NCBI GenBank assembly: GCA_000953695.1
Contig: LN554846.1
Location: 1,488,001 to 1,552,000, forward strand
DNA from: Aliivibrio wodanis
GTDB lineage: Bacteria > Pseudomonadota > Gammaproteobacteria > Enterobacterales > Vibrionaceae
DNA: 64,000 nucleotides
Direction of reading: 5' to 3'
The notes under the pieces were generated by a model. The model was not told where the DNA came from. It saw only the letters and a program-made list of their open reading frames with translations, and ran no database searches. Both the position numbers and the translations under genes were made by a program. Of the stretch, positions 3,138 through 14,481 are shown one piece after another. Positions within the stretch are counted from its first letter, which is position 1. The number at the start of each line of letters is the position of its first letter.

Positions 3138-3177
3138 CTCATATCATTTAATGGAAAATCAATTAACATCAGGGTAC

Positions 3178-3244
3178 GTTGGTATGGCGTAATTGAGAGT
3201 TAACAAAGCAAGGATAATGAGCAATTAACTGTTTCGAGGAAAAT
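3178..3244 (+). repeat. Repeat A plus repeat B, contiguous copy upstream of a GNAT gene
   Basis: Repeat A (TTGGTATGGCGTAAT through AGAGTTAACAAAGCAA) and repeat B (GCAATTAACTGTTTCGAGGA) lie side by side just before the GNAT gene at 3245. A recurs at about 14652-14685 and B at about 15198-15221, where a different GNAT gene has been inserted between them. The A end, GTTAACAAAGCAA, resembles the TAACAA starts seen after other genes in this region. Confidence 0.6.
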
Positions 3245-4009
3245 ATGAACATACAGGAAGTTACTCGTATTTATAATGAATACGAACGAAAAGGAAGCAC
3301 TCTCGGTGGCTATACAAAAGTGGTCACTCCTGAGGTCGTTAAATTTGTTTCTGGTACCCAATATGGCAGTTTTATATCATTCTTTGACCTGAATGATGAA
3401 AATGTAGACAGTGTTATCGAAAGAGAAAAAGCGTATTTTGCACAGCGTGATCTAGCTTTTGAATGGAAGGTTTACGATACTGATTTACCAACCTCAATTG
3501 ATAAAAAATTGATATCCCATGGGTTTGAAAAGGGTGAGTCAGAATCCTTCATGGCGCTTAGTTTAGATGAGCTCTCTATGATAGATGTTGATAACGATCC
3601 ATGTGTCGAGGTGAGTGACGAACAAGGAATAAAGGATGCTATTTCTGTCCAAGAGCAAGTATGGGGCGGCGACTTTAGCGGCCAATTAGCTCAACTTATT
3701 AATGCGAAAAAATCAGCCCCTGATGATTTAACAATCTATGTCATTTATGAAAATGATTTACCCGTTGCATCTGGGTGGATTGTTTATACGTCCAATAGTC
3801 CATTTGCAGGGATCTGGGGTGGCAGTACACTTAAAGCCTACCGAGGCAGGGGCTATTATTCGACTCTTTTGCATCAACGAATGAATGATGCTATCAAGCG
3901 TGATATCCAGTATTTAATTATTGATGCATCTGATATGAGTAAGCCAATTGTAGAAAAGTATGGTTTTCAATTTGTTGCGAAAACAACGCCATATACTATA
4001 GAGGCTTAA
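3245..4009 (+). CDS. GNAT-family N-acetyltransferase
   Basis: This 254-residue protein has a C-terminal GNAT domain. The acetyl-CoA pyrophosphate loop is seen in AYRGRGYYSTLLHQRMNDA (about residues 199-217), preceded by the strand GIWGGSTL and followed by YLIIDASDMSKPIVEKYGFQFV, the usual motif B ending in a YGF turn. The first 110 residues are a less conserved N-terminal lobe, making the protein longer than single-domain GNATs. The substrate is unknown. The start has a CGAGGAAA ribosome-binding site. Its stop codon (4007-4009) directly abuts the start of a broken second GNAT gene. Confidence 0.85.
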   Translation: MNIQEVTRIYNEYERKGSTLGGYTKVVTPEVVKFVSGTQYGSFISFFDLNDENVDSVIEREKAYFAQRDLAFEWKVYDTDLPTSIDKKLISHGFEKGESESFMALSLDELSMIDVDNDPCVEVSDEQGIKDAISVQEQVWGGDFSGQLAQLINAKKSAPDDLTIYVIYENDLPVASGWIVYTSNSPFAGIWGGSTLKAYRGRGYYSTLLHQRMNDAIKRDIQYLIIDASDMSKPIVEKYGFQFVAKTTPYTIEA

Positions 4010-4320
4010 ATGGAAGTGTCTCTAGTAAAAATTAACGCTGAATCTCGCCTATTCTTGAGAATCTGTTCCCATATTATATTTATGATATGTCTGAATATAT
4101 GGGCTGGTCTCCAAATGACAACGGTCACTTTAGCTTTAATAAAAGCAGCTTAGACGTATATTGGGAGCGGGTAGATCATGCTCCATACTTTATTTACGTT
4201 GATAATGAATTAGCCGGTTTTGTTCTGGCTCGAAAGTACCCATCGAACAGACTTATTTACGATATTGAGCAGTTTTTTGTATTACGTAAGTTCAAAGGGA
4301 AAGGTACAAGCAATGGTTAA
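4010..4320 (+). pseudogene. GNAT acetyltransferase, N-terminal part, frameshifted and truncated
   Basis: An ATG at 4010 opens a frame MEVSLVKINAESRLFLR, which is lost after about base 4060. Adding one A there restores NLFPYYIYDMSEYMGWSP, which continues in the open frame from 4087. The protein then reads through YVDNELAGFVLARKYPSNR and IEQFFVLRKFKGKG, reaching the start of the acetyl-CoA loop, before the frame diverges at 4306 and stops at 4318-4320. The missing second half of the GNAT domain lies at 9258-9555, beyond the helicase gene. The gene was thus broken twice: by a one-base deletion and by the insert. Confidence 0.85.
4211..4305 (+). repeat. Direct repeat, left copy, flanking the helicase gene
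   Basis: These 95 bp of GNAT coding sequence are repeated at 9269-9363 with only a few substitutions, mostly in the first 30 bases. Both copies end in GGGAAAGGT, after which the sequences differ completely: ACAAGC here, and GTCGGT (the true GNAT continuation) on the right. The repeat brackets about 5 kb containing the DUF4011 helicase gene. Confidence 0.9.
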
Positions 4321-4463
4321 CTGGTAGCTCAACAACAAGTTTACGGTAAACAATTCCCGAGCATATACGATATAAATAGGTCATTTATTGATCCACATTA
4401 GGTAGCATAACTTACCATATAGAATATAATACGATTACCGAAATAATATGGTTTAACTGAAAG

Positions 4464-7400
4464 ATGAACTCAAATCTTAAAGATATATTTGATAAAAGCC
4501 GTCAAGAACTACTTGATATGGGGCTTAGAGGGAATACATTACTTAATGTTGGCAAGGGAGCCAAAGTTCTAGACATTGTTGACGAAAAGTCTGAGCAGGT
4601 GTTTGAACACTTGGTTGATGAGTCAAAAATGATGTCATTCCTACCTGCTCCTGACTCTCTGGATACAGAGGACAGCAAGTCGATATCTTTAACTGATTTG
4701 ACTACTCATCTTGAAGAAAAGAATGGTGACAAGAGGCACTCAGATAATGCCTTACAAACTCAGTTATTTAGAAAGTCATTAGACACTCGATTACTAAAAC
4801 TAAGCACAGAAGCCACCACATTTGTGCAAGAGCAAGGGGTTGACCTTCTTTATCTTGCGATGGGGTTTGTTAAGTGGTTTGAAGATGATAATTCAGATAA
4901 GCCTAGATACGCTCCTTTAGTGCTAGTTCCTGTCGAAATTTTTCGAGAAGATGCGGGTGATTCATATAAAATTCGCTATACAGAAAATGAGCTAGGAACA
5001 AACCTAACGCTTGCTGCAAAGCTTAAAATGGAATTTGGAATTATCCTACCTGATTTTGAAGAGGGTGAAGATGGTTATGATTTCCAAGGGTACCTAGACC
5101 TGGTTACTACGGCTATCGCGGGAGAAAAGCGTTGGTTAGTAGAAAGCAATAAAATCGTTTTGAGTTTTTTCTCGTTTGGTAAGTTTCAGATGTATCAGGA
5201 CTTATCAGATGATGTGTGGCCTGATGGTAAGAAACCATCTGAAAATAGCTTAATTCAAAAGCTATTCACTGAAGGCTTTGAACGTGATGCAACATTGCTT
5301 GATTCAACACCAATGGACGTAAACCGTGTTGAAGAAGTTCAACTCGTTTTAGATTCTGATTCAAGTCAAACCGAAGCGGTTTTGGCAGCTAAGTCAGGGG
5401 CGAATCTTGTGATTCAAGGTCCTCCAGGTACAGGTAAATCTCAAACCATCACCAACATCATCTCGCAAGCTTTAGCTGACAATAAAAAGGTGTTGTTTGT
5501 TGCAGAGAAGATGGCAGCTCTTGATGTCGTAAAACGCCGATTAGATAACTGTCATATTGGCGATTCAGTATTAGAACTTCACTCACACAAGGCGAATAAG
5601 AAGTCTGTTCTTTCTTCATTAGAAAATACATTGATGCAGCATGCTCCTGTTACCCCTGAGAGGAGTGAAGATATTGATCGCTTGGTTTCTCTACGTAATA
5701 AATTGGATGATTACTGCCAGTCGGTCAATGAGAGCATCGCAAATACAGATGTCAGCTATCATGATGCTTTAGGTTATAGCTCACAGCTAGAGCGAATCAT
5801 AACCAATGCTTCAATTGAGCTAAATGAGCTGCCTCATATCGATTTTGATTTAAACGTTTGGGATAAGAGTTACTACCTGTCAGCCCTTGCTAAGATCACG
5901 GAGGTCGTTGATTATTTAACAGAGCACGCTGCACCAAGCCTGAATCTGTTTTCATCTACTAATCTTAAAGACTATTCGCCATCAGATGACAAGTCGGCAC
6001 AAAAGCTTGTTGCTGAAGTCGTGCAAACACAGCAAGAGGTCATTGATCAAGTTAAAGCTCTTCATGCCTGCGCTGGTTACGTCTCACCGATCGTTACTTA
6101 TACGGATTGCATTTCAGTGCTTGATGGCCTATCCCTTATTGCAAATAGACCCGAGCTTGAGAGTGTTGATGTAAACGCTCCTGCTTGGGATTCGAAAGGC
6201 GATACGATACTCGATTTTGCGCTTCAAGGAGCAACGCTACAAGATAAAAAATCCGAACTTTCAGAGCACTTTGTCGATAGTTCATTAGATTATGATTGGA
6301 TGCCAATTCGTGGCTCGTTGCTTACAACAGGTCAAAAGTGGTGGCGATTCCTATCTGGTGATTACCGTAAAGCAAAAAGCACCTACGCAGGCATGTGTAA
6401 AAATGGGCTTGCTGGTGGAGCAAGTGAATGGATTGAGAAGATTGATGCGGTACTGGAGTATCGTTCGACTCAAAAAAGCTTTATCGACTCGGCACAATTG
6501 GTAATTGATACTATCGGTAGTCATTTTAAAAATGAGAGTACCGACTGGAAAGCAATACTAAAGCCGCTTCAATGGGTGCAGCAATGCCATTCAGGAATTA
6601 AATCTGGAACGCTGGATCACAGTGCAGCGCAATACCTAGACCCATCAAAGGAAATTTCTTTTACTACCGCTGAGCTTGATAAGGTTAAGGCGCTTATTGA
6701 GAAGCGCACGAACGTGATCAATGAAATCGCATCGCTGTTGCAACTGAATCTAAGTTCCTTTGTTGAAAGATGTGATGCCCTGCAATGTGATGAAGTTGAA
6801 ACGATTGATAGTGATATTCAGAAGTTCTACCCATTAACACGTTTCAATCGTTTAGGCTCAAATCTTGATACCATCGGACTTTCTGATTGGAGACAACAGG
6901 CATTTACGTGGTCGAAAGCATCTATGCTTATTCGAGATTGCTTTAAATTCACGTACTACAGTTCGCTTGTTGATCACCAATATGATTCACGAGATGAAAT
7001 CCGCTACTTTGATCGTGTTGAACATGAAAAACAGATTGAACAGTTCAGCTCTATTGATGGTCAATTGTTCCACTTTGCTCAAGAGACGTTGGTGAAACAG
7101 CTTTACGATAATCTACCGAATCCGTCAGCAAGAGGTGAGGTAGAAACGTTAAGACGTGAATTTAATAAGAAACGCCGCCAGATGCCAATTAGACGGCTGC
7201 TTAATAAATCAGGCAGAGTGATCCAGCAGATCAAACCTGTATTTATGATGAGTCCAATGTCGATCGCAACTTACTTAGAGCCAGGTGTGGTTAATTTCGA
7301 TTTGGTTATTTTCGATGAAGCATCACAGGTTAAGGTTGCTGACGCTCTTGGGGCTATTATGCGTGGTAAACAGGTCATTGTTGTTGGTGATACTAAGCAA

Positions 7401-9167
7401 ATGCCACCGACCAGCTTCTTTGGTAAGCAGTTAGTCCTTGACGATGAAGAGGCCGAAGAGAGCTTAACGGCTGATATGGAAAGTATCTTGGGGATGTTTT
7501 TAGCGTCAGGCACGCCAGAAAAAATGCTTAAATGGCACTACCGTAGCCGCCATGAGTCGTTGATCGCAGTGTCTAATCAAGAGTTTTATGACAACAAACT
7601 AATGATTTTCCCGTCATCAGGAATTAATCCTAATGCAAAAGGTTTGAGTCTCAATTACTTGCCGAATACTACTTATGATCGAGGTGGTTCAAGAAGTAAT
7701 AAGGGTGAAGCCGCAGCCGTTGCAGAGGCGGTGATTAAACATGCTAAAACAACGCCAAACCAAACACTGGGCGTTGTTGCATTCAGTACAGCTCAACGTG
7801 ATGCTATCTTGCTAGAAGTTGAACGCTTAAGAAAGGCGAACCCAGATCTCGAACACTTCTTTGGAGAGCATGAAGAGGGGGAAGACTTCTTCGTTAAAAA
7901 CCTTGAGAACGTACAGGGTGACGAGCGCGATACTATCTACATCAGTATCGGTTACGGTAAGACGAATGAAGGGCGCTTACCAATGAGTTTTGGACCACTT
8001 AATGGGGAAGGTGGAGAGCGAAGGCTTAACGTACTTATTTCACGTGCTCGTATGTGCATGGAAGTATTTAGTAACTTTAAGGGTGAAGAGATGCCCACCA
8101 CTGACGCATCTCCATTCGGTGTACGTTCGCTGAAAAACTTCTTACATTACGCTGAAACAGGTGATTTGGTTAAGAGAGAAGAAACGGGTAAAGGGCCTGA
8201 TTCGCCATTTGAAGAAGAAGTCATCTCTTCAATTCGTTCGTTAGGCTACCTAGTTCAACCGCAAGTCGGTTGTGCAGGTTTCTATATTGACATTGCAGTG
8301 AGAGATCCACATAAACCTGGTCGTTATATGCTTGCAGTAGAGTGTGATGGGGCAACTTATCACAGCTCTAAGAGTGCTCGAGACAGAGATCGCATCCGTC
8401 AGAGCGTGCTTGAAGGGTTGGGTTGGCGTTTCCACCGTATCTGGAGTACTGATTGGTTCCGCAATCGCCACAAAGAAACAGGAAGACTTGATGACGCTAT
8501 TAAATCTGCGATTGCATATTACGAAGCTTATGATTCAGAATCACTAGTTGAAGAGGTCGTACAATCAAAGCCAAAAGTCAAAGCTGCGATTGAAAGGGTA
8601 GAAGTTGAACATCAATCGTCTGCTGCGATCTATCAGGTCTATCCAGCGGATCAGTTATATCTTGGGCTAGGTGATACGATACCTGATATCAATACAGCAA
8701 CATTAGCAGAAGATATATTTAAAGTGGTTGAGCTTGAATCTCCAATTCACGTTAAGCAGCTTAGTATTCGTTTGTTATCGGCCGTTGGTAGTTCTCGAAG
8801 TGGTGCTCGAATCAACCGAGCAATCTTTGATGGTATTAGTTTGCTTAACAGGCAAGCTAAAGTAGATCTTGATGGTGAGTTTATTATTGCGAGCCAAAGC
8901 GAAATTACCATTCGTAGCCGATCCGAATTGCCATCCAATGAGCGTAAGTATGATCTGATTTATGACGGTGAAATTGCAAAAGCAGCAATAGATACCGTTA
9001 GGGATACATTCTCAATATCAAATGATGATTTAGTGAAGTCAATTACGGAAGTATTAGGCTTTTCAAGCACAAGCAAAGCGATGAAAGTTAGAACTGAAAC
9101 GGTACTTGCGGAACGAGTAAAATCTGGTGACTTGGGATTAAAAGGCGATACTTACCAGATTTCTTAG
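4464..9167 (+). CDS. DUF4011 / SF1 helicase / MTES-type nuclease / DUF3320 multidomain protein
   Basis: This 1567-residue protein combines an N-terminal DUF4011-like region (about 1-290), a superfamily 1 (Dna2/NAM7/UPF1-like) helicase, a PD-(D/E)XK nuclease and a C-terminal DUF3320 region. Helicase motifs are clear: Walker A GPPGTGKS at 319-326, Walker B FDEAS with DE at 951-952, VVGDTKQMPPTSFF, WHYRSRHESL, LENVQGDERD and LNVLISRAR. Between Walker A and B is a long helical insert of about 600 residues. The nuclease (about 1245-1335) shows an early E, then YIDIAV and VECDGATYH with E1293 and D1295, as in the REase_MTES_1575 family. This architecture recurs in bacterial accessory islands and is suspected of acting on foreign DNA; that role is inference. 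It is a single-gene unit inserted in a GNAT gene, with a hairpin at 9184-9209 after it. Confidence 0.9.
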   Translation: MNSNLKDIFDKSRQELLDMGLRGNTLLNVGKGAKVLDIVDEKSEQVFEHLVDESKMMSFLPAPDSLDTEDSKSISLTDLTTHLEEKNGDKRHSDNALQTQLFRKSLDTRLLKLSTEATTFVQEQGVDLLYLAMGFVKWFEDDNSDKPRYAPLVLVPVEIFREDAGDSYKIRYTENELGTNLTLAAKLKMEFGIILPDFEEGEDGYDFQGYLDLVTTAIAGEKRWLVESNKIVLSFFSFGKFQMYQDLSDDVWPDGKKPSENSLIQKLFTEGFERDATLLDSTPMDVNRVEEVQLVLDSDSSQTEAVLAAKSGANLVIQGPPGTGKSQTITNIISQALADNKKVLFVAEKMAALDVVKRRLDNCHIGDSVLELHSHKANKKSVLSSLENTLMQHAPVTPERSEDIDRLVSLRNKLDDYCQSVNESIANTDVSYHDALGYSSQLERIITNASIELNELPHIDFDLNVWDKSYYLSALAKITEVVDYLTEHAAPSLNLFSSTNLKDYSPSDDKSAQKLVAEVVQTQQEVIDQVKALHACAGYVSPIVTYTDCISVLDGLSLIANRPELESVDVNAPAWDSKGDTILDFALQGATLQDKKSELSEHFVDSSLDYDWMPIRGSLLTTGQKWWRFLSGDYRKAKSTYAGMCKNGLAGGASEWIEKIDAVLEYRSTQKSFIDSAQLVIDTIGSHFKNESTDWKAILKPLQWVQQCHSGIKSGTLDHSAAQYLDPSKEISFTTAELDKVKALIEKRTNVINEIASLLQLNLSSFVERCDALQCDEVETIDSDIQKFYPLTRFNRLGSNLDTIGLSDWRQQAFTWSKASMLIRDCFKFTYYSSLVDHQYDSRDEIRYFDRVEHEKQIEQFSSIDGQLFHFAQETLVKQLYDNLPNPSARGEVETLRREFNKKRRQMPIRRLLNKSGRVIQQIKPVFMMSPMSIATYLEPGVVNFDLVIFDEASQVKVADALGAIMRGKQVIVVGDTKQMPPTSFFGKQLVLDDEEAEESLTADMESILGMFLASGTPEKMLKWHYRSRHESLIAVSNQEFYDNKLMIFPSSGINPNAKGLSLNYLPNTTYDRGGSRSNKGEAAAVAEAVIKHAKTTPNQTLGVVAFSTAQRDAILLEVERLRKANPDLEHFFGEHEEGEDFFVKNLENVQGDERDTIYISIGYGKTNEGRLPMSFGPLNGEGGERRLNVLISRARMCMEVFSNFKGEEMPTTDASPFGVRSLKNFLHYAETGDLVKREETGKGPDSPFEEEVISSIRSLGYLVQPQVGCAGFYIDIAVRDPHKPGRYMLAVECDGATYHSSKSARDRDRIRQSVLEGLGWRFHRIWSTDWFRNRHKETGRLDDAIKSAIAYYEAYDSESLVEEVVQSKPKVKAAIERVEVEHQSSAAIYQVYPADQLYLGLGDTIPDINTATLAEDIFKVVELESPIHVKQLSIRLLSAVGSSRSGARINRAIFDGISLLNRQAKVDLDGEFIIASQSEITIRSRSELPSNERKYDLIYDGEIAKAAIDTVRDTFSISNDDLVKSITEVLGFSSTSKAMKVRTETVLAERVKSGDLGLKGDTYQIS

Positions 9168-9183
9168 CGAGTCATTGGTTATA

Positions 9184-9209
9184 TTCCACTGAGTCGTAAC
9201 TCAGTGGAA
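9184..9209 (+). terminator. Hairpin after the helicase gene
   Basis: TTCCACTGAGT-CGTA-ACTCAGTGGAA forms a perfect 11-bp stem with a 4-base loop 17 bases after the helicase stop codon. There is only a weak pyrimidine tract (CCCTTTC) behind it, so it may be a partial terminator or an mRNA-end stabiliser. Confidence 0.6.
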
Positions 9210-9257
9210 CCCTTTCACTTTAAATAAAACTTATGTCTAACTGAGGGAGTAGAAATG

Positions 9258-9555
9258 ACTACTAGTATTAGGCGGTTTTTTTCTGGCTCGAAAGTATCCA
9301 ACGAACAGACTTATTTACGATATTGAGCAGTTTTTTGTATTACGTAAGTTCAAAGGGAAAGGTGTCGGTAAACAAACGTTAAAATTGGTGACTGAGCAGT
9401 TTTCAGGTCAATGGCAGATCAGAGTACTCATTGGTAATGAAGCCGCATTGAAGTTTTGGCAGTCTGCAATTTCTGGTTTAGTTGGTGAAAATTACACACA
9501 GTCTGAGCAAGTCGACATAGATTTACTTATGCACTTTCTCACGTTTAAAGTCTAG
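9258..9555 (+). pseudogene. GNAT acetyltransferase, C-terminal part, without a start
   Basis: An open frame after a TGA at 9255-9257 encodes GGFFLARKYPTNRLIYDIEQ, then FKGKGVGKQTLKLVTEQF (an intact acetyl-CoA-binding loop), then RVLIGNEAALKFWQSAI and a normal C-terminus ending at TAG 9553-9555. The nearest in-frame start codon is missing. The ATG at 9255 is in another frame and hits a stop within 25 codons. The first 32 residues duplicate the end of the fragment at 4010-4320. Joining the two fragments gives one ordinary GNAT of about 160-170 residues. Confidence 0.85.
9269..9363 (+). repeat. Direct repeat, right copy, flanking the helicase gene
   Basis: This is the partner of 4211-4305. It continues into the genuine downstream part of the GNAT gene, so the right copy is the one attached to the original gene end. 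Such a long flanking duplication is not a simple transposase target duplication (usually 2-14 bp). Recombination between two similar gene copies, or integration next to a carried gene fragment, would explain it better. Confidence 0.9.
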
Positions 9556-9590
9556 CCAGTATCTAGTTATTCTTTTTTATACGATATTCA

Positions 9591-9624
9591 AAAACCGAGC
9601 AGGGTAACTTGCTCGGTTTTTTTT
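9591..9624 (+). terminator. Rho-independent terminator after the broken GNAT gene
   Basis: AACCGAGCA-GGGTAAC-TTGCTCGGTT forms a GC-rich stem followed by eight T, 38 bases after the GNAT stop codon. This is a textbook intrinsic terminator. It probably belonged to the GNAT gene before it was split. Confidence 0.88.
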
Positions 9625-9792
9625 GTATTTAATGGTTGGAAGAAGAGAAAAACCATCACTTATAATTAATATTATCAATAGTTTAAGTGTTAATAAAAAT
9701 GGAACTTAAACGACAAATAAGAAAGAATCCCATGAAACTTATCTCAGAAAGAGTATGATGTACGTACGGTAAATAAATGGTTTACGCCTGAG

Positions 9793-9965
9793 CTAACGGC
9801 ATAAAGCGACACGTTGTCGTAAACATGAGTGCAGAAATTACACTGTATAGTTATAGTGTTGATTTATTGGGGGTTTAGAGAAAGGCTAGATGATTTAGTA
9901 AAATAATTAGTGACAAATGTTATAGGTGAACTATAAGACATTGTGTCGTAGATCAAGCGTTATAT
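9793..9965 (+). other. Candidate degenerate attC-like recombination site upstream of the DUF2971 gene
   Basis: The left end GCTAACGGCATAAAGCGACAC and the right end GTGTCGTAGATCAAGCGTTAT can pair over TAACG/CGTTA and CGACAC/GTGTCG, separated by an unpaired stretch. This matches the two-box layout of an attC, with AAC on the left and GTTATAT (core site GTTRRRY-like) on the right. The DUF2971 start codon lies 21 bases beyond, as expected for an integron cassette. Spacings are not canonical, so this is a hypothesis. The rest of 9556-9986 holds a terminator and small hairpins but no gene. Confidence 0.35.
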
Positions 9966-9986: not shown

Positions 9987-10973
9987 ATGAATGAATATCT
10001 TTATAAATATACAAAATTCCGAGAAGATTTTCTGTCGGACCCTTATATTCGGGCAACTCAAATTGAGGGCTTGAATGATCCATTTGAAGCGAATGTAACT
10101 TTGGAACAAATTATTAAAGCAAGGAAGCAGCATAATGAGTTTTATGATGTTTCTGAAGAGTTTCAGGGAGAAGACTTTGATTATATGATGGAAGAATTTC
10201 TTAGTCTTTCACAACAAGATTTGTCAGAAATAGGAGTTATTTCTCTTACAGAAGACCCAATTAATCCTCTGATGTGGGCTCATTATGCTGATGAGCACAA
10301 AGGAGTTGTATTACAAGTTAAGAATGAGCACTCTTTTTTATGTGGTGCGAACGAATACATTGGTGGGAAGAGAGTCAGATATAATAAAGATATTTTTGGT
10401 TTTGCAAGTGAATTACCTAAACCTGTAGCATATCGTAGAAATCGACCTCAATTTGATTTTATAGAAGAAGTAGCACCTGAGCATAGACAAGCTTATCCAC
10501 ATAAAAAATTTAACGAGAAATTAATCTACACAAAAGCCAACGATTGGCTTTATGAAAAAGAAAGTCGCTCAGTTGTTTACTTAAAAGATGCAGATCGAAT
10601 TGTGTGCTCTTATGATGAACATACTTTCAAATTTTGCGATAACCATGAATTTTTAACAGTTAAAAACCTAAGTGACAACAGAATTCAAATAGATTTCCCT
10701 ATTAATTTTGGAAATATATTAGACTTTGCGAATGTCGATGATGCTTTATATGATGAGTACGAAGATAGAAATGACTTATACTTATGGACAAGGGGCTTAG
10801 ACGCTCAATATTTCTTTAAGTTAAACCCTAGCTCAATATCAGCTTTTATATTTGGTTGCAAATCAAGTTTTGGCGATATTGAAATCACCAAACAAAAATT
10901 GTCATGGGATGCAGATCTTTACAAAGCGAAAATATCTAAAGATAAATTTGAGTTAGACTTAGAAAAAATATAA
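9987..10973 (+). CDS. DUF2971 family protein
   Basis: This 328-residue protein shows the DUF2971 pattern: LYKYTKFREDFL near the start, an ATQIEGLNDPFEAN segment, and the conserved GVISLTEDPINPLMWAHYADEHKGVVLQV around residues 86-114. Then come a KLIYTKANDWLYEKESR motif and FGCKSSFGDIE near the end. The biochemical function is unknown; family members are frequent in bacterial defence and mobile-element neighbourhoods. A GGAG lies about 8 bases before the start. The stop codon TAA is the first three bases of repeat X, so the gene and repeat form one unit. Strong AT-richness sets it apart from the core genes downstream. Confidence 0.82.
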   Translation: MNEYLYKYTKFREDFLSDPYIRATQIEGLNDPFEANVTLEQIIKARKQHNEFYDVSEEFQGEDFDYMMEEFLSLSQQDLSEIGVISLTEDPINPLMWAHYADEHKGVVLQVKNEHSFLCGANEYIGGKRVRYNKDIFGFASELPKPVAYRRNRPQFDFIEEVAPEHRQAYPHKKFNEKLIYTKANDWLYEKESRSVVYLKDADRIVCSYDEHTFKFCDNHEFLTVKNLSDNRIQIDFPINFGNILDFANVDDALYDEYEDRNDLYLWTRGLDAQYFFKLNPSSISAFIFGCKSSFGDIEITKQKLSWDADLYKAKISKDKFELDLEKI

Positions 10974-11111
10974 CAAATAAGGATTAAGCGCTGCGAAGCC
11001 AGCGTTAAATCCCGGGTGTTGAACAAGCCCGTAGCCACTTCTTTATAGTAAATTGTACGATCTAGTTTGGTGGGCGTATCGCCTTGAATCTTTCTTCAAG
11101 GCGAGCGAAGC
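10970..11111. repeat. Dispersed repeat X, copy 2, fused to the DUF2971 stop codon
   Basis: This is the longest and best-preserved copy, about 142 bp. It starts at ATAACAAATAAGG, which contains the stop codon. It has a hairpin from GGATTAAGCGCTG and CAGCGTTAAATCC around a CGAAGC loop. The tail (TTTATAGTAAATTGTACGATC through CAAGGCGAGCGAAGC) is shared with 13074-13214 only. A second small stem, GCCTTGAA/TTCAAGGC, lies in the tail. Copy 1 at 1415-1490 shares only the first 76 bp. Confidence 0.85.
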
Positions 11112-11163
11112 TAAGGTTTCGATAGTAACGTTATCAATGGGTTATCTGTTTTTGTTGTCTTTT

Positions 11164-11277
11164 TTTGTTATATCTCCTCTGGTTTAACTTCAGCCATTAT
11201 CCTTACTATGTTTGCCTTTCGGCTATCTCGGTCGTGTTATTACCACGCACTCCATGTTATGGTGACAGTGTGGGCAG
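11164..11277. repeat. Dispersed repeat Y, copy 2
   Basis: This copy is closely similar to 381-494 and again encodes a CPHCHHNMECV-like zinc-ribbon tail on the minus strand, here broken by stops. It sits between repeat X and an IS4-type relic, so the 10974-11829 gap is filled with mobile-element debris. Besides the relics, the gap holds only a 30-codon frame at 11684-11776 without recognisable features. Confidence 0.6.
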
Positions 11278-11378
11278 CAAGAACTCAAGAGTGGGTAAGG
11301 TACGTGTCTTTATTGCATTGGTTTTGCTTTCTTTGTAACGGAAGGTGACGTTATGATCATCACTGTGGATGACTGTTT

Positions 11379-11829: not shown

Positions 11830-13077
11830 ATGAAAGATATAGACTTTAATTTCACCGGCTTCCATGGAACCCCAGGTCGTTGCCATATAAGAATTGCGAG
11901 AAAAAGTGCTAATCACAAAATTGTTGTAGTATGTTCTCAGTATAAAAATTATTACGGTACTTCCGTGACTAACGCGATGGAGATTATAGCAAGAAAACTA
12001 TTTAATGAAATTCACAATAACAATTTATACGACTTATCTTTATCAGAGCGTAGCGTAGAGTTAGTTTGGCATGATGATGTTAACTGGTTTGAAAAAAAGT
12101 TAGTTGAACTCAATGAAAATAAATATAAGTATCGATTTATGAGTCACACTCTTAACTTACACACAGTTTTCGATGAGGTTTTGTGGATCGAGAGATACCC
12201 TAAAGGAGTCTGTTCATTTGAATTTGATGATTTATATTCTGTAGCGACAATCAAAGAGAGTGGCTTTCCTGAATGGAAGGGAAGACCAACAAATGAACTT
12301 GTAAAGGAAAATACGGGATATGATATTGAAGAGCTATTCTTAGAGAGTGACTTTGATCTTAAATCTACAAAAGAATCACAAATTGTAAATAATGGTTTGA
12401 CTGTTAGCACAGAGCCCTTGATTGACTTAAATAGTATTGAAAGAAATTTTGAATGGATAGATGACATACTAAAGATTCTTCCAGCAAAAATCATTAGCCA
12501 TGAGTTTGATTCTGGGACTAAAGAAAATGAAATGCTTTGGGAAAAGGATATTCAAAGCCTTGTTGGTTCAATATTTAATACTTGTTTTCCTCATCGTGAC
12601 TTATTTGATAATGAGTATGCTGTTTCATCAAAAATCGGTGTGGCTAATAAGTCGGGTAGCAAGAAAAAGTGCGATTTAGTGATCTTTTCTCCTGGAAAGA
12701 AAGACCCTTCATCTATGGTTGAAGTAAAAAGAGTAGTTTGCTCAGATGTACCATACGGAGCATTTTGCCAGGATCTAGGCAAATTATTGCTTTACTCAAA
12801 GTTAATTAAATCTAATGCTTATTTCTTAGTATGTGGAGAGCCTGATGGTATTAATAATTTTCAGGAACTGATTAGAGAAGAATTCTCTGTTCATAAGTTA
12901 AAATTATCAGATGAGTATTCTAGTTTACTGAAAAAAAATCATATTTTTACGGTGTTTACTAAATTGGTTGGTAGTAGTAGAGATGGAAGTGTTGCAATCT
13001 GGAAAATAGCACATGACAAAGATTCTATAGATAGAAATAACTCTGCACGGTATGTAATATCAGAGAAAAATAGCTAA
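11830..13077 (+). CDS. Unrecognised protein with a PD-(D/E)XK nuclease-like signature
   Basis: I do not recognise this 415-residue protein as a named family. In the second half, E238 (WEKDIQSLVGSIF), D282 (KKKCDLVIF) and E298-x-K300 (SMVEVKRVV) are spaced and framed by hydrophobic strands as in PD-(D/E)XK nucleases, followed by a helix and strand (DLGKLLLYSKL, AYFLVCGE). The first 200 residues are a separate acidic/aromatic domain of unknown type, with a strand-rich start (CHIRIARKSANHKIVVVCSQY). There is no signal peptide or membrane segment, so it is cytoplasmic. The stop codon begins repeat X, exactly as for the DUF2971 gene. It is very AT-rich with no convincing ribosome-binding site. DNA cleavage is inference. 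Confidence 0.65.
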   Translation: MKDIDFNFTGFHGTPGRCHIRIARKSANHKIVVVCSQYKNYYGTSVTNAMEIIARKLFNEIHNNNLYDLSLSERSVELVWHDDVNWFEKKLVELNENKYKYRFMSHTLNLHTVFDEVLWIERYPKGVCSFEFDDLYSVATIKESGFPEWKGRPTNELVKENTGYDIEELFLESDFDLKSTKESQIVNNGLTVSTEPLIDLNSIERNFEWIDDILKILPAKIISHEFDSGTKENEMLWEKDIQSLVGSIFNTCFPHRDLFDNEYAVSSKIGVANKSGSKKKCDLVIFSPGKKDPSSMVEVKRVVCSDVPYGAFCQDLGKLLLYSKLIKSNAYFLVCGEPDGINNFQELIREEFSVHKLKLSDEYSSLLKKNHIFTVFTKLVGSSRDGSVAIWKIAHDKDSIDRNNSARYVISEKNS

Positions 13078-13214
13078 CAAATAAGGATTAAGCGCTGCGA
13101 AGCCAGCGTTAAATCCCGGGTGTTGAACAAGCCCGTAGCCACTTCTTTATAGTAAATTGTACGATCTAGCTTGGTAGGTGCATCGCCTTGAGTCTTTATT
13201 CAAGGCGAACGAGG
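13074..13214. repeat. Dispersed repeat X, copy 3, fused to the nuclease-like gene's stop codon
   Basis: This copy is about 95 percent identical by eye to 10970-11111 over its whole length, starting at the stop codon CTAACAAATAAGG and ending CAAGGCGAACGAGGC. Two unrelated genes thus share the same 3' junction base for base, pointing to a common recombination or mobilisation end. Confidence 0.85.
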
Positions 13215-13328
13215 CTATATCGTCGTGTTATTCCCACGCACTCTTTGTAAGCCTTTAGGCAGTACATGCTGCAAGATGAGCATGACCGTTTTCAGTTCAA
13301 GTGAGTGTTGTGTTTACGGTGTAATGGT
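13213..13328. repeat. Shortened copy of the repeat Y and IS4 relic block
   Basis: The stretch GGCTATATCGTCGTGTTATT to CACGCACTC (13213-13243) matches part of repeat Y, and 13288-13328 matches the end of the IS4 relic at 11374-11413. The order X, Y, IS4 tail is the same as at 10970-11413, with about 180 bp missing in total. The 13078-13368 gap therefore holds a degraded duplicate of the debris behind the DUF2971 gene. Confidence 0.65.
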
Positions 13329-13368
13329 TTAGGTTAGGTGGTTGCGTGCTTCACACCTGAATTGGGCG

Positions 13369-13920
13369 TTAGCACTCAAGGCGTCGTAAAATCTTCACAC
13401 TGCTCTCTATCACTTCAGCGCTTGTGCCTGCCATATAAGCAGTTGTGATTGCCCCTTCTTTTAATAAGCATATCGCATTGAGTAAATCCTCTGAATTTCC
13501 ACTTAACTTACTTTGTATTAACTGGCGTACTTGTTTTTTGTGAAATCGACAATAGGTAGATATTTCACTTTTAGCGTCATGGAATTCCGCCGAAGTGTTT
13601 ATAAAGAAACAACCGTTAAAATCACCTAGTTCAGGCTCTTCACCTTCAAACCAACCCTCTAAAGAGCGGAATAGTGTATCAATCAACTCATTATTATTGG
13701 TTGTGTTTTCAAGTTTCGCTTCAAGCCATTGCACAAAGATAAGGTGTCTTTTCTCTAACGCTTTAAGCACCAGATCTTCTTTGCTGCTGAAGTGGCTGTA
13801 TAGAGTCTTCTTAGCCACACCTGAAACCTTGATTACTTCATTGATACCAATGGAATTAATGCCGTGTCGGTAAAAAAGCTCTAATGCTGTATTTAACAAT
13901 AAATCTCGCTTCTTGCTCAT
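13369..13920 (-). CDS. TetR-family transcriptional repressor
   Basis: This 183-residue protein begins with the TetR DNA-binding domain: LLNTALELFYRHGINSIGINEVIKVSGVAKKTLYSHFSSKEDLVLKALE (split by the recognition helix around KKTLYSHF). A C-terminal TetR_C-like ligand domain follows, with GDFNGCFFINTSAEF. Such repressors release DNA when they bind a small ligand. It is transcribed away from the HPP gene at 14023, and two GTAGAC/GTCTAC-type operators lie in the shared promoter region. It probably represses itself and the HPP gene. The ligand is unknown. Confidence 0.9.
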   Translation of the reverse strand: MSKKRDLLLNTALELFYRHGINSIGINEVIKVSGVAKKTLYSHFSSKEDLVLKALEKRHLIFVQWLEAKLENTTNNNELIDTLFRSLEGWFEGEEPELGDFNGCFFINTSAEFHDAKSEISTYCRFHKKQVRQLIQSKLSGNSEDLLNAICLLKEGAITTAYMAGTSAEVIESSVKILRRLEC

Positions 13921-14022: not shown

Positions 14023-14481
14023 ATGAATCATTATGTGTCAGCTTTAGTTGCGGGAGTTGGGGCTTCAATTACTCTTGGTTTTCTCTTGATGGTGGAGGCT
14101 AATGTAGAAAGTGCAGCTTTGGTAATGGCTCCATTTGGGGCAACAGCAGTGCTAGTTTTTGGTTTACCACAGAGCCCACTTGCTCAACCCAAAAATGTAA
14201 TTTTAGGTCATTTGATCACAGCCGTTATTGGTATAGTGTTTTCTCAGTATGTAGGTGTAACACCAATGAGTTTAGCCATTGCAACAGGGTTAGGGATTAC
14301 ATGTATGTTGGTATCTAAAACAACGCATCCACCGGCAGGTGCGAATCCAATTCTAATTATGTTGGCAGGACATGGTTGGTCATTCTTAGTTACACCTGTC
14401 TTGATTGGCTCTATCGTGATAATTTTAATGAGTAAAGGTCTTCAAAAAGTTCAACAATACACTTTAAAATCAAAGTGTTAA
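14023..14481 (+). CDS. HPP-family membrane protein
   Basis: This 152-residue protein has about four to five hydrophobic segments and the family-defining motif THPPAGANPILIML near residues 103-116, plus MAPFGATAVLVFGLPQSPLAQPKNV. HPP proteins are inner-membrane proteins; some plant and cyanobacterial members move nitrite, but the bacterial role is generally unknown. The start has GTGAGG 9 bases upstream. Control by the divergent TetR-family repressor is suggested by the two operators in its promoter. Confidence 0.88.
   Translation: MNHYVSALVAGVGASITLGFLLMVEANVESAALVMAPFGATAVLVFGLPQSPLAQPKNVILGHLITAVIGIVFSQYVGVTPMSLAIATGLGITCMLVSKTTHPPAGANPILIMLAGHGWSFLVTPVLIGSIVIILMSKGLQKVQQYTLKSKC

Follow-up and report, generated by a model that had tools for sequence, protein, structure and literature searches.

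The stretch of Aliivibrio wodanis DNA analysed here, referred to as the window, comprises 64,000 nucleotides (LN554846.1, positions 1,488,001 to 1,552,000). Near its left end, a large helicase-nuclease gene lies between two pieces of a GNAT acetyltransferase gene. For comparison, the genomes G001 and G011, a Vibrio locus (G249), and plasmid P2 of V. parahaemolyticus CHN25 [GenBank:NZ_CP010886.1] were of particular value. The following features were defined:

3245-4009, + strand: upstream GNAT-like gene, 254 aa, open, ending just 5' of the split GNAT gene (ORF; Acetyltransf_9, below the curated cut-off)
4010-4305, + strand: 5' portion of the interrupted GNAT gene, frameshifted by one base near 4049 (translation; Acetyltransf_1 at 4096-4311; G011 match)
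4209-4305, + strand: left copy of a 97-bp repeat, internal GNAT coding sequence
4306-4398, + strand: 3'-end remnant of a plasmid replication gene (CyRepA1-like), forming the left end of the insert (G249 DNA and peptide matches)
4424-4463, + strand: helicase 5' region in common with plasmid P2, putative promoter (DNA match 4424-9221, 81%)
4464-9167, + strand: helicase-nuclease gene, 1567 aa, with DUF4011, SF1 helicase (AAA_11/AAA_12), MTES_1575 nuclease and DUF3320 (ORF, domain and PADLOC matches)
9184-9209, + strand: hairpin 3' of the helicase gene, putatively terminator-like (fold of 9160-9270, z -2.98)
9222-9266, + strand: 45 bp at the right end of the insert, without a match outside its own genome (query 9200-9266)
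9267-9363, + strand: right copy of the 97-bp repeat
9267-9555, + strand: 3' piece of the split GNAT gene (translation; G011 match)
9544-9962, + strand: native DNA on the right side, joined directly to 3159-4220 in G001

An ATG at 4010 opens the left GNAT piece, which after a change of frame follows the GNAT reading frame from about 4050 onwards. The right piece contains no stop codon before the one at 9553-9555. A comparison of the two flanks by Blast yielded an E value of 5e-41, caused by a direct repeat of 97 nt with 93 identical positions and a spacing of 5058. Its four mismatches are confined to the first 35 nt, and the remaining 62 nt are the same in both copies. In the preliminary description, the repeat had been given as 95 bp (4211-4305 and 9269-9363); its presence was confirmed, but it is two bases longer at the left. 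Similarly, a one-base lesion had been noted in the left piece. Relative to G001 there is indeed a frameshift, but its position is near 4049 and not 4060.

To determine how the two pieces are related, they were compared to an intact GNAT of 164 aa encoded in G011. Positions 4096-4305 correspond to residues 30-99 of this protein and 9271-9552 to residues 69-161. The pieces are therefore complementary, they overlap only in the repeat, and no coding sequence has been lost between them. These residue ranges bear out that two halves of one acetyltransferase surround the helicase-nuclease gene, as had been proposed, and that the repeat copies come from one gene and not from two different GNATs. Matches to the right piece were detected in 117 out of 296 Vibrionaceae genomes at E values up to 0.001, the best one elsewhere being 66% identical; the weaker matches are other GNATs. 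Two of the four repeat differences result in right-copy residues that are absent from all 31 relatives compared, which suggests decay rather than a working donor allele.

The helicase reading frame (4.7 kb) is open throughout. By the profile criterion it belongs to PDC-S37 of PADLOC, since residues 1-1563 match positions 1-1543 of the 1550 in this profile with 1952 bits. Relatives with E values up to 1e-200 are present in 11 of the 296 Vibrionaceae genomes, including its own. An anti-phage role is probable, as judged from family membership only. The term PDC-S37 was not found in the literature searched. In one report, a DUF4011 gene is named at the border of a defence hotspot, which has no bearing on this locus (PMC10250203). 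Among insert ORFs of at least 80 aa, the helicase gene is the only one on the + strand, and the sole ORF on the - strand (7271-7513) lies inside it. No tRNA or Rfam RNA was detected in the window.

Searches with the insert indicated its likely source. Homology to G249 extends from 4304 to 9194 with 88.7% identity, and the helicases are 94% identical. It begins a few bases from the edge of the left repeat, and a gapped local alignment reaches back to 4298. With positions 4306-4423 alone as query against the 296 genomes, G249 was obtained with an E value of 1.2e-11 and the next best genome with 0.003; at E values up to 1, 185 of these genomes matched, mostly as noise. The match to the upstream flank of G249 covers 4306-4410 (74% at the DNA level, E 1.2e-11) and starts at 4304 if a 15-kb query is used. 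In G249, the gene upstream of the helicase is a Rep-like ORF of 318 aa, and its last residues were recognized in the window at 4302-4343 and 4363-4398, in different frames and with an E value of 0.004 each. On P2, the gene preceding the helicase encodes a protein whose end shares 57% identity with this ORF. For this P2 protein, 62 plasmid records matched. Among the 40 of the 62 that were listed, identities besides P2 itself were 20-25%, and most of the proteins are annotated as CyRepA1 replication proteins. Homology of the P2 neighbour gene to annotated CyRepA1 members was thereby found; no Pfam model matched the P2 protein. Accordingly, the window remnant corresponds to the end of a CyRepA1-like gene by comparison with G249, the family name being carried over from P2. 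The end of P2's own replication gene matches the left junction weakly (E 1.4), and with 4306-4423 against P2 alone, an equally high score was reached by 46 of 2000 shuffled sequences and by 28 of 923 other sequence windows. The identity of the remnant therefore rests on G249. Among plasmids, neither the left-junction DNA nor a 25-aa peptide encoded by 4324-4401 had a match. The G249 Rep-like ORF (L263 12221-14254) is short and adjoins an ORF that we take to be transposase-like; here, the same plasmid segment may have been captured by a chromosome independently.

The limits of homology vary among the relatives. In Photobacterium malacitanum only 4452-9167 is homologous at the DNA level, on P2 4424-9221, and in G249 the region mentioned above; the homologous unit is thus without fixed ends. 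The hairpin at 9184-9209 is within the DNA in common with P2 and incomplete in G249. For 9200-9266, no match was obtained outside its own genome in the 296 genomes at E values up to 0.01, and none on P2 past 9221. No convincing GNAT match was found beside the helicase in the P2 (14.8 kb) or G249 (20 kb) stretches. There is also no transposase of its own in the insert, which together with the variable ends of homology does not conform to a transposon with target-site duplication. The earlier view that the repeat is not an ordinary transposase target duplication agrees with this, as no sign of such a duplication was found. When the junction DNA was compared to loci outside its own genome to check for an integron cassette, the longest matches were 14-15 bases. 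From its sequence, the insert is best interpreted as part of a rep-helicase segment of a plasmid, lacking the ends of an element. What is new is the remnant of a plasmid replication gene at the insert edge.

If the helicase gene was inserted, relatives lacking it should be found. Fourteen genomes of the genus, its own included, were compared, and both sides of the locus were matched at one place in one of the 13 relatives, G001. There, 3159-4220 is joined directly to 9544-9962, and the helicase had no match at E values up to 0.001. A relative without the insert thus exists, but the clean empty site that had been asked for, with an intact GNAT gene, was not found among the 13 relatives, because in G001 the second half of the GNAT gene is deleted. 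For this reason, insertion in the A. wodanis lineage and loss in G001 are not strictly polarised. A third state is seen in G011, in which a 100-bp piece spanning the GNAT start adjoins a fragment resembling recombinase-like ORFs of the A. wodanis genome; the intact GNAT gene of G011 is on a different contig. Small remnants of the same helicase were observed in G011:C66 (L090) near 14091-14305, with peptides 77% and 83% identical. Between A. wodanis and G001, 36 of 403 positions differ in the right flank (9556-9962), 6 of 206 in the 5' GNAT piece, and 25 of 765 by substitution in the syntenic upstream gene (3245-4009). As an estimate of age, the 4 differences in 97 nt between the repeat copies offer too few sites for a conclusion when set against these values.

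Several other arrangements were noticed around the locus. The segments 9586-9775 and 9789-9962 are 13 bp apart in the window; elsewhere in the same genome (L087) and in G001 (L200) they flank a GNAT gene of 179 aa, which is absent between them here. Downstream of the split GNAT gene, 9987-10973 encodes a DUF2971 protein with a PDC-S31 match, and 11830-13077 shows a weak SduA-like match; the two genes perhaps form a small defence cluster. A repeat family located at 1414-1488, 10963-11300, 13067-13217 and in L087 has 19 matches in the A. wodanis genome. It sits after the stop codons of single genes (antitoxin-like, DUF2971, SduA-like), and some copies contain a truncated N-terminal domain of a tyrosine recombinase (Phage_int_SAM_4). 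From these properties it looks like a mobile element carrying single genes, which may be IS91-like. An integron integrase is encoded about 370 kb from the window (G000:C1:1117150-1118097), with a second match over the cut-off on C2. Repeats near this integrase (L088) resemble 13310-13371 of the window (region 13277-13371). They may be attC ends, and if so, the window contains an attC-like remnant away from the integron.

Taken together, the complementary pieces and the relative without the insert support the view that foreign DNA interrupted a single GNAT gene. How the 97-bp duplication arose is a separate question. We consider it probable that a plasmid-derived fragment was inserted into one GNAT gene by a non-homologous left joint. 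The donor would have been a piece of about 5 kb from a Vibrio-type plasmid, or from a plasmid remnant in a chromosome, which started within the final codons of a CyRepA1-like replication gene, contained the PDC-S37 helicase-nuclease gene and ended shortly after it. Its insertion into a single GNAT gene on the Aliivibrio chromosome would have broken the gene and left 97 bp on both sides. Capture may have occurred by non-homologous joining, with about 2 bp shared on the left side, at a break with a long stagger whose fill-in would produce the duplication. The helicase would be expressed from its own promoter and act against phages. The left joint is informative in this respect: the GNAT and G249 sequences share about 2 bp there, so that the left side does not look homologous but rather like illegitimate joining. 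Fill-in of a staggered break is preferred, as it can do without a GNAT in the donor; the stretches around the helicase of P2 and G249 did not show one. Taken alone, however, this step is held with somewhat less than even confidence. A stagger of 97 nt is long, which counts against it, and the confinement of the mismatches to the first 35 nt could mean that one repeat copy came from a diverged donor, contrary to the favoured route. The lack of a match for the last 45 bp of the insert also speaks against the overall interpretation.

The main rival is a single crossover with a circle composed of the plasmid fragment and a 97-bp internal GNAT fragment, which would generate one copy truncated at the 3' end and one truncated at the 5' end. 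Insertion by means of an internal gene fragment gives this geometry, donor and recipient alleles might differ as the two copies do, at 4 of 97 positions, and lacZ of E. coli provides a laboratory precedent (PMC3240628). It does require a GNAT fragment already joined to plasmid DNA, of which the P2 and G249 stretches gave no indication, and the right-copy residues seen in none of the 31 relatives look like decay and not like a donor allele; we regard this route as rather unlikely, but as the first to be considered after the favoured one. The preliminary description had likewise suggested a GNAT fragment on the incoming DNA, or recombination between two alleles. This was not substantiated. At the left edge, GNAT sequence is joined to the end of a plasmid replication gene, the two sharing about 2 bp. 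Less likely still is homology-facilitated illegitimate recombination (HFIR) during DNA uptake, with an illegitimate joint at 4305/4306 and a homologous crossover within the right GNAT copy. The left joint would fit, and within the right copy the mismatches are restricted to the 35 nt next to the insert, as if the crossover had occurred near 9302. A donor with a truncated GNAT gene 45 bp past the shared helicase DNA would be needed, though, the unmatched 9200-9266 region offers no such donor, and the four HFIR clones of the E. coli study (PMC3240628) had deletions. Finally, the helicase gene could lie between two different genes from an ancestral tandem GNAT duplication, each of which decayed. 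GNATs are common in Vibrionaceae, as the 117 genomes with some match to the right piece indicate, and a second GNAT-like gene is situated directly upstream. Because the pieces are complementary with only the repeat as overlap, and the G001 flanks are contiguous around a single broken GNAT gene, this is very improbable.

If the helicase were a discrete mobile unit generating duplications of about 100 bp at insertion, similar repeats should flank its relatives. From 398 relatives found, 80 were kept and 77 tested, three being too short. Direct repeats of any kind flank nine of the 77 helicase loci and three of 80 mock segments. Applying a strict rule of at least 40 nt and at least 90% identity, four of the 77 loci remained (L101 67 nt, L102 101 nt, L137 42 nt, L169 53 nt) compared to 0 of the 80 mock segments, which were, however, drawn from other genomes. 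The L102 repeat is the 3' end of the neighbouring ORF, and at L101 one copy lies within a neighbouring ORF of 352 aa and the other at the contig edge. By sequence, L102 resembles the split GNAT case, and L101 perhaps does as well; those at L137 and L169 have the appearance of terminators or intergenic repeats. A weaker repeat (81 nt, 75%) was detected at L107. At the six named Vibrio, Aliivibrio and Photobacterium loci, L093-L098, no flanking repeat was found. Considering also the differing ends of homology, a discrete mobile unit is very improbable. It is a long shot, too, that PDC-S37 has spread as bare rep-helicase fragments from CyRepA1-type plasmids, with repeated capture through a joining process in which about 100 bp of the target gene are duplicated and which the helicase-nuclease itself possibly promotes. 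If this were true, a defence gene would assist in its own integration.

The locus appears to be a real insertion, well explained as the capture of a plasmid-derived, predicted defence gene. It would exemplify how a large defence gene can pass from a plasmid into a chromosome with no transposon, integrase or recognised cassette site involved. With both junctions and a relative without the insert at hand, the route of capture can be read from the sequence.

Comparison with known systems revealed similarities as well as differences. In the E. coli study (PMC3240628), a diagnostic PCR product for lacZ duplications was obtained in 56 out of 60 Lac-negative recombinants, and 14 duplications were sequenced, ranging from 109 to 950 bp. 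Its authors concluded that a circle had recombined by a single crossover after loss of part of the homology. As in A. wodanis, a gene fragment is duplicated next to foreign DNA, but the lacZ duplications are longer and arose in the laboratory, whereas the duplication of 97 bp is natural and no donor homology was found in the P2 and G249 stretches. Among anti-phage proteins, Hhe, which also contains DUF4011, gave strong partial matches (743 bits in the PADLOC search and 1012 bits with NCBIfam). The latter score is below the equivalog cut-off of 2000, and the helicase has 1567 aa compared to model lengths of 1797 (NCBIfam) and 1911 (PADLOC). ProA (NCBIfam NF058533) matched with 1398.7 bits over model positions 360-1902, leaving the first 359 positions unmatched and staying below the equivalog cut-off of 1500. 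The full-length match is to PDC-S37, likewise a single-gene helicase and itself only a candidate system. A similar arrangement is that on P2, where a Rep-like gene is followed by a helicase gene whose product is 87.7% identical. P2 differs in having no GNAT match nearby, DUF262 genes downstream, and a full Rep-like gene of 792 codons.
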